From Seison nebaliae (taxonomy: Eukaryota; Rotifera; Pararotatoria; Seisonacea; Seisonidae), in NCBI GenBank assembly GCA_023231475.1, contig JALJEE010000341.1, forward strand, positions 1 to 64,000: a stretch of 64,000 bases of DNA, read 5' to 3'. Below are positions 1,804 through 56,728 of this stretch, in pieces. Numbering within the stretch: the stretch's first letter is position 1; each line of letters begins with the position of its first letter. Below the pieces are notes generated by a model, which saw nothing but the letters and a program-made list of their open reading frames with translations, did no database searches and was not told where the DNA came from. The translations under genes and the position numbers were made by a program.

Positions 1804-2046
1804 ACATTAAATTACCATTTAAAATCGCTAACAATTACAAAATCTTTATTCAAACGTTGGTCGGTCAGTGTATTCAAATTTATTTCACTGAAAATAGAAT
1901 AAGAAAATTTTACCTTCCAACTAAATTTTGATCTGGAACAAACATGTATAGTAAAAAATGAACTTACTTTCAATACACTAATTATTTTGCTTTAACTTTG
2001 ATTCAATTTCATTTAGTCATTCATTACGCAAGTTAAGCAGATAGTA

Positions 2047-3042
2047 ATGGGCAATGTTCTAAGTGATAACATTAACAAAAAATTGTCTAAAAATTCTTTG
2101 GAAGATTTTGTGGAGTTAAATGTTGGAAAAAGTTTTATTTTTAATAAGAAAAATCTTTCGGTTGTTGGAAGAAATGTGGCAAAATATAAAAATGACTTGA
2201 GATTCGAAAAAGTTTTCCAAGCAAATACACTATATTCAGATCAGCAAGTTGGTGCTCTAACAGTCTTAAAAATGAAGAATCTTTCGGAAAGTGCAGTTCT
2301 GTCATTTAGATTGAAATCTACTAATGTCTGTGCAATCCACGTTGTACCATCACATGGTTTAATTACTCCAAATATGATATGTACCGTTCATATTTCATTC
2401 CTTAAACAATTTTGGCGTAATGCAAAAAACTTACGAATTCTTTTACAAATTACACCCGTTTTGAATAAAGACCTCACAAACAATGAATTGAATATCGCTC
2501 AATTGTGGAAACAGTTGGAAGTTGAAGAGAAAACGAGAATTAAGAAAAAATTGTTCAAACTTAAATTTGAAAATTGTGAGTCGGCCATGATCTCTAAAAA
2601 GAGCCAAACGTCAAAGAATAAAATAGTTATCAAAAGGACTTGTTCGAAACAACCGGCAAAACTAGTTGAAGAAATGGGAGTTTCGAGTTCCCATCCGTAT
2701 GAGAACTTCTTTCTTGACGATGTTTACAAATCAAAATTATCAAGTGAAAATTCCAAGAATAAGAAGAGAAGTATTGGACACAAAGATTTTTCTGCAACTT
2801 TTTCTCACGGAGATACTTGTCGTTTACCAATATCCAATTATAATTATGAGAAAATTGATTCATCTACAACCAAATGTGATGATAGATCAAATAATAGAAT
2901 TCATACGAGGGAAGTAAAAGGAAATATTTTTAAGGAGTATGCTATAAAAATATTTGAAATTTTAAGGAATCTGGATAACCAGTCATTGTTTGTTTTATTC
3001 ATATCAATTATTGAACCTCTCAGCAGATTTATTATTCATTAA
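2047..3042 (+). CDS. MSP/VAP-domain protein, possibly tail-anchored
   Basis: Single-exon frame of 331 residues from ATG to TAA. Residues about 60-165 look like a major-sperm-protein (MSP) domain of the VAP type. The features are a strand pattern with TVLKMKNLSESAVLSFRLK, the VVPSHGLITPNMICTVHISF block (compare the family P-x-SG-x-I-x-PG pattern) and the closing AQLWKQL, which resembles the AxWKEA end of VAP domains. The middle (190-290) is basic and serine-rich without a known domain. The last 20 residues (SLFVLFISIIEPLSRFIIH) are hydrophobic and could be a C-terminal membrane anchor as in VAP proteins. VAPs sit in the ER membrane and bind FFAT motifs at contact sites; function here is inferred only from the domain. 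MOSPD-type proteins are an alternative. The tRNA lies upstream on the opposite strand. Confidence 0.7.
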   Translation: MGNVLSDNINKKLSKNSLEDFVELNVGKSFIFNKKNLSVVGRNVAKYKNDLRFEKVFQANTLYSDQQVGALTVLKMKNLSESAVLSFRLKSTNVCAIHVVPSHGLITPNMICTVHISFLKQFWRNAKNLRILLQITPVLNKDLTNNELNIAQLWKQLEVEEKTRIKKKLFKLKFENCESAMISKKSQTSKNKIVIKRTCSKQPAKLVEEMGVSSSHPYENFFLDDVYKSKLSSENSKNKKRSIGHKDFSATFSHGDTCRLPISNYNYEKIDSSTTKCDDRSNNRIHTREVKGNIFKEYAIKIFEILRNLDNQSLFVLFISIIEPLSRFIIH

Positions 3043-3868: not shown

Positions 3869-4624
3869 ATGGAAAATATATTGATGGAATTGAGGAAATT
3901 GAATGGGGAGAAAGAAACGAAAATAAAAGGGTTTGAAGAAATATGTTGCAAAGCCCTCCACGAAATTGCATCAATGGATCCGACAGATATCGATGATGAT
4001 TTGATGGATGAATGGGATGAACTTCTGGCTGTGATCGATGAACGAATTAACAATCGTGAAGTTTCAAATTCGATCAATTTTGATGATTTGATTGATCATG
4101 AATTTATTACAATGAACGATGAAATCAGTACATTGAGGAGTTTATGGGAAAGTAAATATTCTCTTCTTATCTGTATGAGACATTCCGCCTGATATCCCTG
4201 ATATCGACACATCGAACAGATAGCGTCCTCCGACAAATTTTCTGATGTTCAGATCTTTATCATCTCTCAAAATTCTTCCAATTTACATAATATACAAAAT
4301 AATCTCGAAATCGAATCGAATTTTACTCTCCTGAAAGATTTTTGTAACGTTGAACAAACTTTCTTTTCCAAACTCAATTTAAGAAGTTCCTTCTTCGTCA
4401 CATGGTCGTCTGGTCCGTTGAAGCTTTACGGAAATATGATAAGAAGAAAAGAGAAATGTCTTTTACCGTCCGTCAATGAAAATACTCTCCAAATGGGAGG
4501 TGATTTCATTTTGAAGAAGGGAGAAGACGACTCTAATTCAAATCGATTAATTTGGAGCTATTATTCGAAAACGTCACTTGATCGACCGAAAGTTGAAGAG
4601 ATTTTTCAACATCTGAACTTGTAA
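3869..4624 (+). CDS. selenoprotein L-type Prx-like2 protein with UxxU redox site
   Basis: One uninterrupted frame of 251 residues from ATG 3869 to TAA 4622, provided two in-frame TGA codons (4190-4192 and 4199-4201) are read as selenocysteine at residues 108 and 111. The context reads RHSA-U-YP-U-YRH, exactly where Prx-like2/SelU thioredoxin-fold proteins have R-x-x-G-C-x-x-C-R. Downstream, in the same frame and with no other stop, come family features: LQMGGDFILKKG (residues 195-210), then an aromatic strand (LIWSYYSK) and DRPKVEEI near the C-terminus. The SelL family is known for a UxxU motif forming a diselenide, with one SECIS element serving both Sec codons. The first 90 residues are acidic and helical in character with no assigned domain. 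I found no SECIS I can defend. The alternative is a Cys-to-TGA pseudogene, but two changes at exactly the redox pair with an otherwise perfect frame argue against that. Confidence 0.82.
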
Positions 4625-5374
4625 CTCTATTTTCTTTTCCGTTTCAAAGGAGAATATGATAATCAATAATTATTCGTTACTTATCATGTTTGAATTTTCT
4701 AATAAAAATTTTTCCGTTTCAATTCCTAAAATTCTGAAAAATTTATTTATGATGAAATTTTCTGTCCTCAATTCATAAAATTCTGCTAAAAGAATTTAAT
4801 CATATCTCACAACTTTCGAAAAGATAAAAAAGATGTAAATGAATTAAACGATAATTTCTAATTTTAGAAATCAAAAAATATTTCCATTTTTAACTGGAAA
4901 AAATGGCTTCTAAAATTGCAGAAAATAATTTAAATTAAAACATGAAATTTATTATACACAATCTGCCTTGGGCGTTAAAGAAAGGTTATATGAAATTGCA
5001 GAATAATTCTTGTCAATTATTTGTTTTTCAGGTGATTTAGTTTCACATTTGATTCGATTTGGAAGAGTGAAGGATCTCAAAATAATATTCGTTATTTTTC
5101 ATTTGGAAATTTTTAAGAATTTTTTTTAGAATCGAGAAACGTGTTTGAGTCGAGGATTCGCTTTCTTTCATGTAGATGGGAATGATGCGCAAAAATTTAC
5201 GAAAATAAATAAATTGCGCATTCGAGGTCATGAGACGGAGTTGAAAATTGCTAAATAGAAATTTCGTTTCAACAATTCCCAATTGTTTTCTCGTTTCAAT
5301 TCAATTTAAATAAAATATATTTCACTTCCAAATAACTTCTCCCATTTTTCCGTTTATTTGTCGCGTGTAATCGA
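4625..5374. other. 3' region of the selenoprotein gene, intergenic
   Basis: This 750-bp AT-rich spacer should hold the 3' UTR of the UxxU protein, and hence any SECIS element, plus the promoter of the tektin-like gene. Hairpins seen by eye are an 8-bp stem at 4885-4907 (CCATTTTT/AAAAATGG) and one at 5185-5221 (ATGCGCAA/TTGCGCAT). Neither satisfies the full SECIS consensus. Confidence 0.5.
5182..5226 (+). promoter_or_regulatory. hairpin beginning with ATGA, weak SECIS-like candidate
   Basis: ATGA (5182-5185) runs into a GC-rich stem, TGCGCAA (5186-5192) pairing with TTGCGCA (5214-5220), around a 21-nt A-rich loop. CGAG follows at 5223-5226. A SECIS needs ATGA opposite NGAN directly at the base of a stem of about 9-13 bp, plus AA in the apical loop. 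Here the GA is displaced by two nucleotides and the stem is short, so this is only a candidate. Confidence 0.15.
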
Positions 5375-6948
5375 ATGACAATTATCGATTTGGAGAAACC
5401 AGAATATGGTCCTGAAGCTTGGAGAAGATTTACGAATCGGAACAAACCAAAAATTCCTCATACAAAACGTTAAAAGAAATTTCTTTTATAAATTTTTATG
5501 AATTTAATTTTCAGATGCGGAAAGTAGAAAATATAAAATTGATCAATTCGCTCAAGCGGCTGATTTCACTGCGAAGGAGATTCTGCGAGAAATCGACGCA
5601 ACTAAGGAATTGTCTCAGATGACAAAAGATATTATTAAACATCAGAAAAGTTTCTTTCTAATCATTAGTCGATTAGAATAAATAATTTAATTAATCAGAT
5701 CAATTGAAATTTCAGGTAATGTATGATGTAAGAGAATTGACGAGATTGAGAAGAATGAATGAGCTATTCGAGAAAGAGATTCAACATTATGTAGAATATT
5801 TGAAGAAAGTATATGAGGAAGTAGAAAGAATTACTTATTTTGTACCTCAATTGTTCGAAATTCTACATTTGGGAGACTTGAGCACTGAATGGAGAGAAAC
5901 ATTCTTCCATGAGCTTCCAGATCTGTTGAAAGAGTATTTGAAAGAATTGGAAGAAGTTGGTCGATTGAATCGTAAGAGAATTTATCGAATAAATAAACTA
6001 GTGAGAGAAATAAATGAAGGAATTTTAGATAAAAGTGAAGAAATCGATCAGGAAATGACTGAGCAAATTAAAAGTTTATTATCACTATTAAATTAAAATT
6101 ATATTTATTATTGCACTTCTTTTGCAGATTTGGAGCATTCGCAAGTATATTTAGGAAATTTGAGAAATAAGTTAAATATAGCAATTAGTAATTGGGGAAG
6201 AAGATTACAGCGATTGCTGGAGTCCAGCGACATCGAAATGAAGCGATTGAGGATGCAACACGACGAAATGGTTTCGTCGCTCGAATTGTTAAAGAAGGAA
6301 CAGAATATTTTAAAAGATGCATGTGAAACTTTAGTGGAGAATATCAAGACTCATCAGAAAGAGTATGAGGATGCTGTCAATCTTGTTAATCGATCGAAAT
6401 TTGACGGAACTCTAATCTATGCGAGAAATGAGGGATTGATTACCAATGTTGGTCGATTGGGACGAAGTATAAAGTGTCTGAAGGCTCAATTGGCGAAAGG
6501 TGAAACTCGCATGAATCAATTAGAAAGTGCATCATTTAGAACGAAGGAAGCATTAGAAAAAATAGATAATACGATATCGATTGCCGAAATCATTATAAAG
6601 AACTTGAAGAATTTGGAACCATTAGCTTGCATTCCAATTTTCATTCCACCACCCGAGAAAATAGAAATAGAAAAAGTAACGTCGAAAGAGACGAAACATG
6701 AAGGGAGAAGCTCACATCCTGATGATAAGGAATTATATTGTGATGATCGTTTATCGATTATTGAGGACGACCAAAAAGGAAAAGATGAGAAAGGCAAAGA
6801 AGTGAAACATTTACGTTTCGACGATAAGGAATTATATTGTGATGATCGTTTGTCTCTATTGGATAAAGAGGAGGAGTATAAGGATCGTAGCGAATTGTAC
6901 GTTGACAAACAACTGACTGAAATAGAAGAGGAAAAATTAGCGAAATGA
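5375..6948 (+). CDS. divergent tektin-like axonemal protein
   Basis: Four exons (5375-5468, 5515-5650, 5700-6073, 6128-6948) joined by three phase-1 introns of 46-54 bp give a clean 474-residue product. The architecture follows tektins. PEYGPEAWRRFTNRN resembles the N-terminal P-x-x-W segment, and HAESRKYKIDQFAQAADFTA the following R-rich helix. Long coiled-coil segments follow, including RLNRKRIYRINKL. A loop at about residues 289-300 (RSKFDGTLIYARNEG) sits where tektins carry RPNVELCRD; that signature is lost. The helix after it (LGRSIKCLKAQLAKGETRMN) fits the last tektin coil. Tektins are filament proteins inside doublet microtubules of cilia and flagella. The C-terminal 80 residues are an added charged tail with an internal repeat. 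Other coiled-coil proteins are possible, but segment order and length support a tektin. Confidence 0.6.
6723..6852 (+). repeat. in-frame duplication in tektin-like C-terminal tail
   Basis: The stretch encoding DDKELYCDDRLS occurs twice, starting near 6721 and 6820, with about 29 identical bases (GATAAGG to CGTTT) spaced 99-102 bp apart. A weaker third version (SELYVDKQLTEIEEE) follows. The near-identical DNA suggests a recent tandem duplication inside the coding sequence. Confidence 0.75.
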
Positions 6949-55094: not shown

Positions 55095-55216
55095 GACGAT
55101 GAGGAAAATGGAAATTATCTGTCGTGTGAAGGACGATTTGTGGAAATAGAAATTTTTTATTGAAAAAAAATTTTGAAAAAAAATTTTATGATGGAAATTG
55201 TTGGCTAAATGATTTG
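55095..55216. promoter_or_regulatory. bidirectional promoter region, P450 / AFG1L
   Basis: Only 122 bp separate the proposed ATGs of the P450 gene (-) and the AFG1-like gene (+). Both promoters and 5' UTRs must overlap here or extend into the other gene. No TATA-like element is convincing; this is inferred from gene orientation. Confidence 0.5.
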
Positions 55217-56728
55217 ATGAATTGTCTGAAGCGTTATTCAACCAACTTGAAATTGAAGACATTGAGAGATGTAGGTCAATTTCGATATTCGACGAAATGT
55301 TTATTGGAAAAATATGAAGAGAAGGTGGAGAAGAAGGAAATCGAATCTGATGAGAATCAGATAGAAATCATCAAAAATTATTTGATGCCTTTCGCTCAAC
55401 TTGCAATCAAACGATTGAGTGACGGTTCGAAAAAATCAATTTTAAAAAATTTCTTCTCATCTTCATCATCATTATCGTCGAAATTGGAGAAAGGAGTTTA
55501 TTTATATGGAGGTGTTGGTAGTGGGAAAACGATGTTGATGAATTTGACATTTGATTGGATTTCAAATGAATTGCAAAAAGATGGATTAATGAAGAGGGAA
55601 ATGAATGTGAATAATCAATTGATACGTAGTCAATTGGATGGAATTCGACGATGTCATTTCATTTCATTTATGAAAGAATTTCATTTAAATTTACATCGAT
55701 TGAAAATGGAAGGAAATGTGATGAATGGAGTGGAATTGATTGGAGAGAGAATATTGAAAGAATCATCGATAATTTGTTTTGATGAATTCCAAGTGACAGA
55801 TATTGCTGATGCAATGATTATGAGGAATTTATTCCAATATTTATTCGATCATCAACTTCTCATTTTTGGAACGAGTAATCGTCGACCGAACGATCTCTAT
55901 CTTAACGGTTTACAACGAAGTAATTTTCTACCATTTATTCCATTATTGGAATCTCATACTTTTCCCATACAAATTCTTCAACATAAAGATTATCGTATTG
56001 ATCAACAACAACAACAACGGGAAGAAGAAGAAGAAGAATCGAAAGACATTGATGAAAAAGAGAAATTTTTAAGAAGGAAATTTCTCTTAAAAAATTCACC
56101 TAAAACTTTCTTTAGTTTCGATGACGAATCGTCGAATGATATTGTGGAATGGATGAAAAGAAAAGATGAATCAATCGAATCGTTAAATGAATTGAAAGGT
56201 GAGGAGATGATGGTGGAGAGTTTTGGGAGGAAGATCATAATACCAAATTTAATAAAATTTTCGAAAGAAAATTTCGAAATGAAATTTGGATTTTATTCAT
56301 TCAACGAATTATTCGAAGAAAATAAAAGTTCCATCGATTATGAAAGTATCACCGATGTTTGTTTGAATGGATTAATCGTCTCAAATTTCCCATTTTATGG
56401 AATTGATGTTTTTCAGAATTCGTCAGCATTTCGACGCTTCATCACTTTCATTGATATCGTTTATGATAAGAATCGATTACTCATTCTCCAATTAGACGAA
56501 TTAAATCGAATTAATTCGCTCGAACAACTTTTCTCTATTAAACGTCAATTGGATGAGTCAGTTCTGTATGATCGAATGAAACATCTAGCTGATTATACGG
56601 ACGGAAAGATCGATAAGAACATCAGTTTATTGACAAATGAAGATGAACGTTTCTCCATCCAACGAACAATTAGTCGACTAAATGAAATTTTCAATTCAAA
56701 AACTTATTGGGAGAAATCGATTAGATGA
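55217..56728 (+). CDS. AFG1L: AFG1-like mitochondrial ATPase
   Basis: Intronless frame of about 503 residues. I prefer ATG 55217 because the frame upstream begins only with TTG. From 55217 the N-terminus (MNCLKRYSTNLKLKTLRD) is basic and lacks acidic residues at first, as expected for a mitochondrial presequence. Walker A is GGVGSGKTMLM (near residue 98) and Walker B is IICFDEFQVTDIADAMI. Sensor-like text LLIFGTSNRRPNDLYLNGLQR and FLPFIPLLESHT is highly typical of AFG1/LACE1. The family is an AAA-type ATPase of the mitochondrial inner membrane involved in protein quality control. A charged insert (EEEEEESKDIDEKEK) lies after residue 260. It ends with TGA, so TGA is a normal stop in this genome. 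Confidence 0.92.
   Translation: MNCLKRYSTNLKLKTLRDVGQFRYSTKCLLEKYEEKVEKKEIESDENQIEIIKNYLMPFAQLAIKRLSDGSKKSILKNFFSSSSSLSSKLEKGVYLYGGVGSGKTMLMNLTFDWISNELQKDGLMKREMNVNNQLIRSQLDGIRRCHFISFMKEFHLNLHRLKMEGNVMNGVELIGERILKESSIICFDEFQVTDIADAMIMRNLFQYLFDHQLLIFGTSNRRPNDLYLNGLQRSNFLPFIPLLESHTFPIQILQHKDYRIDQQQQQREEEEEESKDIDEKEKFLRRKFLLKNSPKTFFSFDDESSNDIVEWMKRKDESIESLNELKGEEMMVESFGRKIIIPNLIKFSKENFEMKFGFYSFNELFEENKSSIDYESITDVCLNGLIVSNFPFYGIDVFQNSSAFRRFITFIDIVYDKNRLLILQLDELNRINSLEQLFSIKRQLDESVLYDRMKHLADYTDGKIDKNISLLTNEDERFSIQRTISRLNEIFNSKTYWEKSIR

Follow-up and report, generated by a model that had tools for sequence, protein, structure and literature searches.

A probable eukaryotic selenoprotein L gene with two in-frame TGA codons at a UxxU motif in Seison nebaliae

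Introduction

Selenoprotein L (SelL, SELENOL) is a peroxiredoxin-like (Prx-like) protein with two selenocysteines (Sec, U) arranged as UxxU, described from fish, sea squirt, sponge, other invertebrates and marine bacteria. SelL is reported to form a diselenide and to be restricted to aquatic organisms (PMC2397514). It is treated as a two-Sec family in PMC3473315, where a sponge SelL is named and, in the part of the invertebrate table consulted, five of six columns include the protein, and a sea squirt SelL is reported from expressed sequence tags (PMC2874816). Bacterial Prx-like oxidoreductases with UxxC or UxxU are tabulated in PMC13188914 and PMC9312934, and UxxU occurs in a marine family called Prx-like 2, a name used there in another sense (PMC2398784).

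Here we analyze a reading frame at positions 3869-4624 in a stretch of 64,000 nucleotides (the window) of the Seison nebaliae genome, which comprises 36.03 Mb in 846 contigs. The window lies on contig C497 and has a GC content of 0.32. Its eukaryotic origin is borne out by spliced genes and by a Sec apparatus of eukaryote type. The frame is very likely a eukaryotic SelL gene with two selenocysteines. With the described SelL it shares a Prx-like protein and two predicted Sec as UxxU; unlike the animal members, which we compared by description only, it has no detected selenocysteine insertion sequence (SECIS) element. SelL is a kind already published in aquatic organisms, and this gene adds one member.

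One frame with two TGA codons at the redox motif

The letters were re-read and agree with an earlier note on this DNA, which had described a single frame broken only by TGA at 4190 and 4199 and ended by TAA. The frame translates to 251 residues, followed by TAA at 4622-4624. Its sole internal stops are the two TGA codons, compared with 19 and 24 stops in the other two forward frames. The gene is present in a single copy within the genome searches made. Its features, all on the forward strand, are as follows.

3869..4624, +, SelL homologue coding frame (251 residues and TAA), a single open exon save for two TGA codons
3869..4078, +, N-terminal helical extension of about 70 residues, outside the NF040769 model
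4091..4612, +, thioredoxin-fold or Prx-like domain (NF040769 positions 4-172 of 173; predicted fold)
4190..4192, +, TGA codon 108, read as the first Sec of UxxU (translation; of 80 bacterial loci in a biased sample, 76 have TGA at the matching site and 4 are unresolved)
4199..4201, +, TGA codon 111, read as the second Sec of UxxU (translation; in the 80 bacterial loci TGA 3, Cys 71, Ser 1, Tyr 1, unresolved 4)

Both TGA codons align with the CxxC of relatives. In the translated context ...SLLICMRHSAUYPUYRHIEQ..., U108 and U111 form U-Y-P-U between MRHSA and YRH, and translation and alignment agree in placing this tetrad at the CxxC site of the family. Further downstream, counterparts of LQMGGDFIL and DRPKVEEI, two stretches proposed earlier as family motifs, were found in relatives.

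We hold with good confidence that the gene encodes a SelL homologue in which both UGA codons are read as Sec to give a 251-residue UxxU protein; Sec insertion at both codons is likely.

Family identity and predicted fold

The NCBIfam model NF040769 ("SelL-related redox protein") matches the read-through protein over residues 75-248 (model positions 4-172 of 173, E 4.3e-19, 68.8 bits). When the model is run on the animal's own genome with TGAs read through, the locus scores 54.2 bits. The match to this bacterial annotation model is nearly end to end, and the motif sites correspond to CxxC, UxxC or UxxU of relatives. The window gene differs in being eukaryotic, in its N-terminal extension and in scoring under the model's cut-off. 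PF00578 (AhpC-TSA) gives E 0.017, below its cut-off.

The predicted structure is a Prx-like thioredoxin fold whose active pair stands where helix 1 begins. Its best structural match is human prostamide/prostaglandin F synthase (PDB 9us9, 9usa; 17% identity), which we take to belong to the Prx-like2 family. That enzyme has two Cys (C44/C47) where the window protein would have two Sec, a correspondence by overall fold and not residue by residue. The identification as a SelL homologue made in the earlier note is thus supported by NF040769 (at a score under its cut-off), by relatives that likewise have TGA at these positions and by the fold.

In a tree of the C-terminal part (92 columns, 56 rows) the protein clusters with four coral-type fragments, with an ultrafast bootstrap of 57. 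The likeness of its N-terminus to that of the coral Porites is not significant, 161 of 2000 shuffles being equally good. Used as a raw query, the protein gave no matches in the protein database (whole and C-terminal part), in phages and plasmids (tblastn) or in viral contigs. A single match to PF13911 in the same genome, also with two TGAs (L019; E 0.059, below cut-off), was set aside by eye after its frames were read.

Relatives carry TGA at the same sites and are often annotated from the motif onward

A profile search that took the window protein and a typed family consensus as seeds retrieved 361 proteins at E <= 0.001, of which 120 were listed; PF13911 is present in these listed relatives. 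When the 120 were aligned with the window protein, 97 began at or after residue 108. The remainder have Cys at both motif sites (16), Trp then Cys (2) or other or partial states (5). We conclude that gene callers truncated most of the listed relatives at the motif. The suggestion that automatic annotation splits such genes therefore holds for the relatives, and the locus illustrates how widely they are mis-annotated. Many public bacterial SelL-like proteins (L033-L112 and P0002-P0121) start right after the Sec codon and are mis-annotated in this way.

The DNA around the motif was read in the best 80 of 112 bacterial loci from genome contigs, mainly of Chloroflexota and Acidimicrobiia type by title. 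The motif is UxxC in 71, UxxU in 3 (L065, L072, L081), UxxS in 1 (L062) and UxxY in 1 (L084), and 4 are unresolved. The first site is TGA in all 76 resolved loci, a share that is biased upward because the query was made from truncated relatives. The mere occurrence of TGA at these two sites in bacterial loci is free of that sampling bias. Among the four unresolved loci, L107 reads U-LP-C by eye. The bacterial Prx-like thiol:disulfide oxidoreductases of PMC13188914 and PMC9312934 also have UxxC and UxxU forms, and they are likened to the 80 loci by motif form, not by subfamily.

The genome retains a selenocysteine apparatus

A search for tRNA-Sec, SBP2, EFsec and SPS2 had been proposed as a check, and all of them were found in the genome, together with SepSecS. 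The tRNA-Sec lies at C406:14700-14785 (anticodon UCA, 68.5 bits) and is the sole one above cut-off among 33 matches. Exons of SepSecS are on C168. SPS2, on C288, itself has an in-frame TGA (LKG-U-GCKVP). The RNA-binding domain of SBP2 is on C167; its best match in the PDB is SBP2 itself (E 5.8e-10), followed by ribosomal L7Ae (7.4e-7), for a peptide spliced across an intron by eye. Domain III of eEFSec, on C214, scores 43.3 bits against a cut-off of 27.

In-frame TGA codons were also found in genes for GPX4 (VASK-U-GLT), SelW (GG-U-GYYGK) and TrxR (GC-U-G), at positions that we take to be their known Sec sites. The TrxR gene (L130, G000:C9) ends GC-TGA-G-TAA. The GC content of eight Sec-related loci is 0.29-0.32, close to that of the window, which speaks against contamination. 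A single match to SelK fell below cut-off and was not accepted, and no SelK was otherwise found in the genome search. Two further loci lie in the same genome as SelL: L026 (G000:C150:101273-101425), presumably the C-terminal exon of SelT, and L021 (G000:C787), which we take to be a fragment of a Cys-type GPX.

Under the proposed explanation, the UGAs at 4190 and 4199 would both be decoded as Sec by the host tRNA-Sec, eEFSec and SBP2. In the predicted product, a thioredoxin fold of the peroxiredoxin-like-2 type, the UxxU redox centre sits where the first helix begins at its N-terminal end. If the protein works as published SelL does, its two selenols may cycle to a diselenide and serve thiol/selenol redox exchange. 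The locus would be a UxxU selenoprotein gene whose product might form a natural diselenide, in a eukaryote with a small genome and a retained Sec apparatus.

Evidence against, and the search for a SECIS element

Several results weigh against this explanation. Neither score for NF040769 (68.8 bits for the protein, 54.2 for the genome) reaches the curated cut-off of 120 bits, and Pfam searches gave no match of PF13911 (AhpC-TSA_2) to the SelL gene. The others concern the SECIS. The earlier note had proposed a search of 4625-5374; Rfam and hand-made scans of this region yielded nothing convincing. In repeated hand-made scans, which covered 4601-5000 and 4560-4945, no convincing SECIS was found from the SelL stop as far as the gene that begins at 4942. 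A strict scan of 4601-5000 gave nothing at or below 0 kcal/mol, and under loose rules the best candidate from the stop to 4941 reached -4.5 kcal/mol with a large unpaired stretch. Four other selenoprotein genes did yield SECIS elements in similar scans. No more than about 135 bases beyond their stops, ATGA...GA hairpins with apical AA occur in GPX4 (-7.4 kcal/mol), SelW (-7.3), SPS2 (-6.4, or -7.0 in another scan) and TrxR (-10.8, at position 1179 of its locus).

The Rfam SECIS searches (E up to 10, in one of them up to 5) gave none for SelL and likewise none for SPS2, GPX4 or SelW. The strict scan, with a background of 6 matches per 128 kb at -7, recovers the GPX4 and SelW elements and misses that of SPS2; TrxR was outside its range of loci. 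The best hairpin at the SelT-like locus (C-terminal exon) reaches only -3.9 kcal/mol. Given SPS2 and the SelT-like locus, the SECIS scans are not fully sensitive.

Two features were noted immediately downstream of the SelL stop.

4656..4694, +, ATGA...TGAA pair, the sole one ahead of the first poly(A) signal; an outer helix could form, the inner one is unstable (+4.0 kcal/mol)
4701..4706, +, AATAAA, by sequence a candidate poly(A) signal for the SelL mRNA, just 3' of the pair

The pair is weak and as predicted probably no working SECIS. An alignment of three SECIS elements with this candidate was too poor for a covariance model. The best hairpin in 4625-5400 (5182-5226, ATGA...CGAG, -8.7 kcal/mol) was rejected, as it lies inside a coding exon of the neighboring RRM gene. 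Per 128 kb of window, the scan that gave it returns 71 matches with -7 kcal/mol or lower and 25 with -9 or lower, and against this background the hairpin lacks significance. A strongly folded stretch near 4853-4932 was rejected because, by eye, it has no SECIS core.

There are three possibilities: the true 3' end lies somewhere else, the element breaks the rules, or the gene no longer has one. It is unlikely that the decoding of both Sec codons does without a canonical SECIS in the 3' untranslated region of the gene itself and relies on a divergent element or on one carried by a read-through transcript, such as the 5182-5226 hairpin. If the SECIS is truly missing, the locus becomes a test case for the recoding of two closely spaced UGAs.

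Alternative explanations

Decay, an intron and reassignment of TGA fit less well than Sec insertion. Recent decay, in which a former selenoprotein (or Cys) gene has lost its SECIS and translation ends at 4190, would account for the lack of a convincing SECIS in 4625-4941 when four other selenoprotein genes yield one in similar scans. The missing SECIS is its only sign. Against it, the 251 codons contain no further stop, the family match continues unbroken in frame to residue 248, the downstream family motifs are intact and GC per codon position is similar 5' and 3' of the TGAs. Nor would a decayed Cys gene be expected to put both TGAs on the two Cys sites. We consider decay quite unlikely.

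An intron spanning both TGAs, whose removal would yield an uninterrupted protein lacking the motif, is very unlikely. With donors from 4090, acceptors to 4290 and a length of at least 40 bases, four in-frame GT-AG pairs could excise both codons, for example 4152-4223 with a GTAAAT donor. All four share a single weak acceptor (ATAG at 4223), which to the eye lacks a pyrimidine tract, and the removed region would include some of the best conserved sequence of the protein. Residues 96-118 have a mean BLOSUM62 score of 1.54 without the motif sites (2.18 with them, relatives' TGA taken as Cys), second to 1.66 for residues 201-245 and compared with 0.23-0.70 elsewhere. In the predicted fold they contain a core strand and the active site.

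Base-call or assembly errors that turned two Cys codons into TGA are highly improbable. Two independent errors would be needed, three codons apart. The chance that two random nonsense changes are both TGA and both at the motif sites is about 1 in 282,375 (31,375 position pairs x 9, by simple arithmetic that assumes equal stop codons), and TGA stands at the same sites in bacterial relatives.

Genome-wide reassignment, with both codons as ordinary sense codons, would explain two TGAs within a conserved frame and is hardly credible, given a tRNA-Sec (UCA) and Sec factors in the genome, TGA at the Sec site of SPS2, GPX4, SelW and TrxR, and TGA as the end of a frame with an AFG1 ATPase domain. That frame bears out one example given earlier for TGA not being generally reassigned (AFG1L); the second, a tektin gene, is unconfirmed. 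Among stop-to-stop frames of at least 200 codons in the window, 4 of 16 end in TGA; some may extend into introns, so not all are gene ends. The two frames concerned are as follows.

55130-56728, +, frame of 532 codons, AFG1-like ATPase domain (Pfam, E 2.2e-49), ending in TGA
6097-6948, +, 283-codon frame, part of the gene called tektin by the earlier note, ending in TGA; no Pfam match at E 0.001

Neighboring genes and other features

The gene directly 3' of SelL encodes a small RRM protein, which we take to be SLIRP-like. It and the remaining features of the window are listed here.

4942-5258, +, RRM gene, small protein, three exons (RRM_1 E 3.4e-6; exon ends by eye)
2017-3042, +, frame of 341 codons, major sperm protein (MSP) domain (Pfam, 26.1 bits against a cut-off of 25.9)
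797-1264, +, fragment resembling reverse transcriptase, by eye
1716-1803, -, tRNA-like match (Rfam RF00005, 53 bits), not called by ARAGORN

The last of these is perhaps an intron-containing tRNA.
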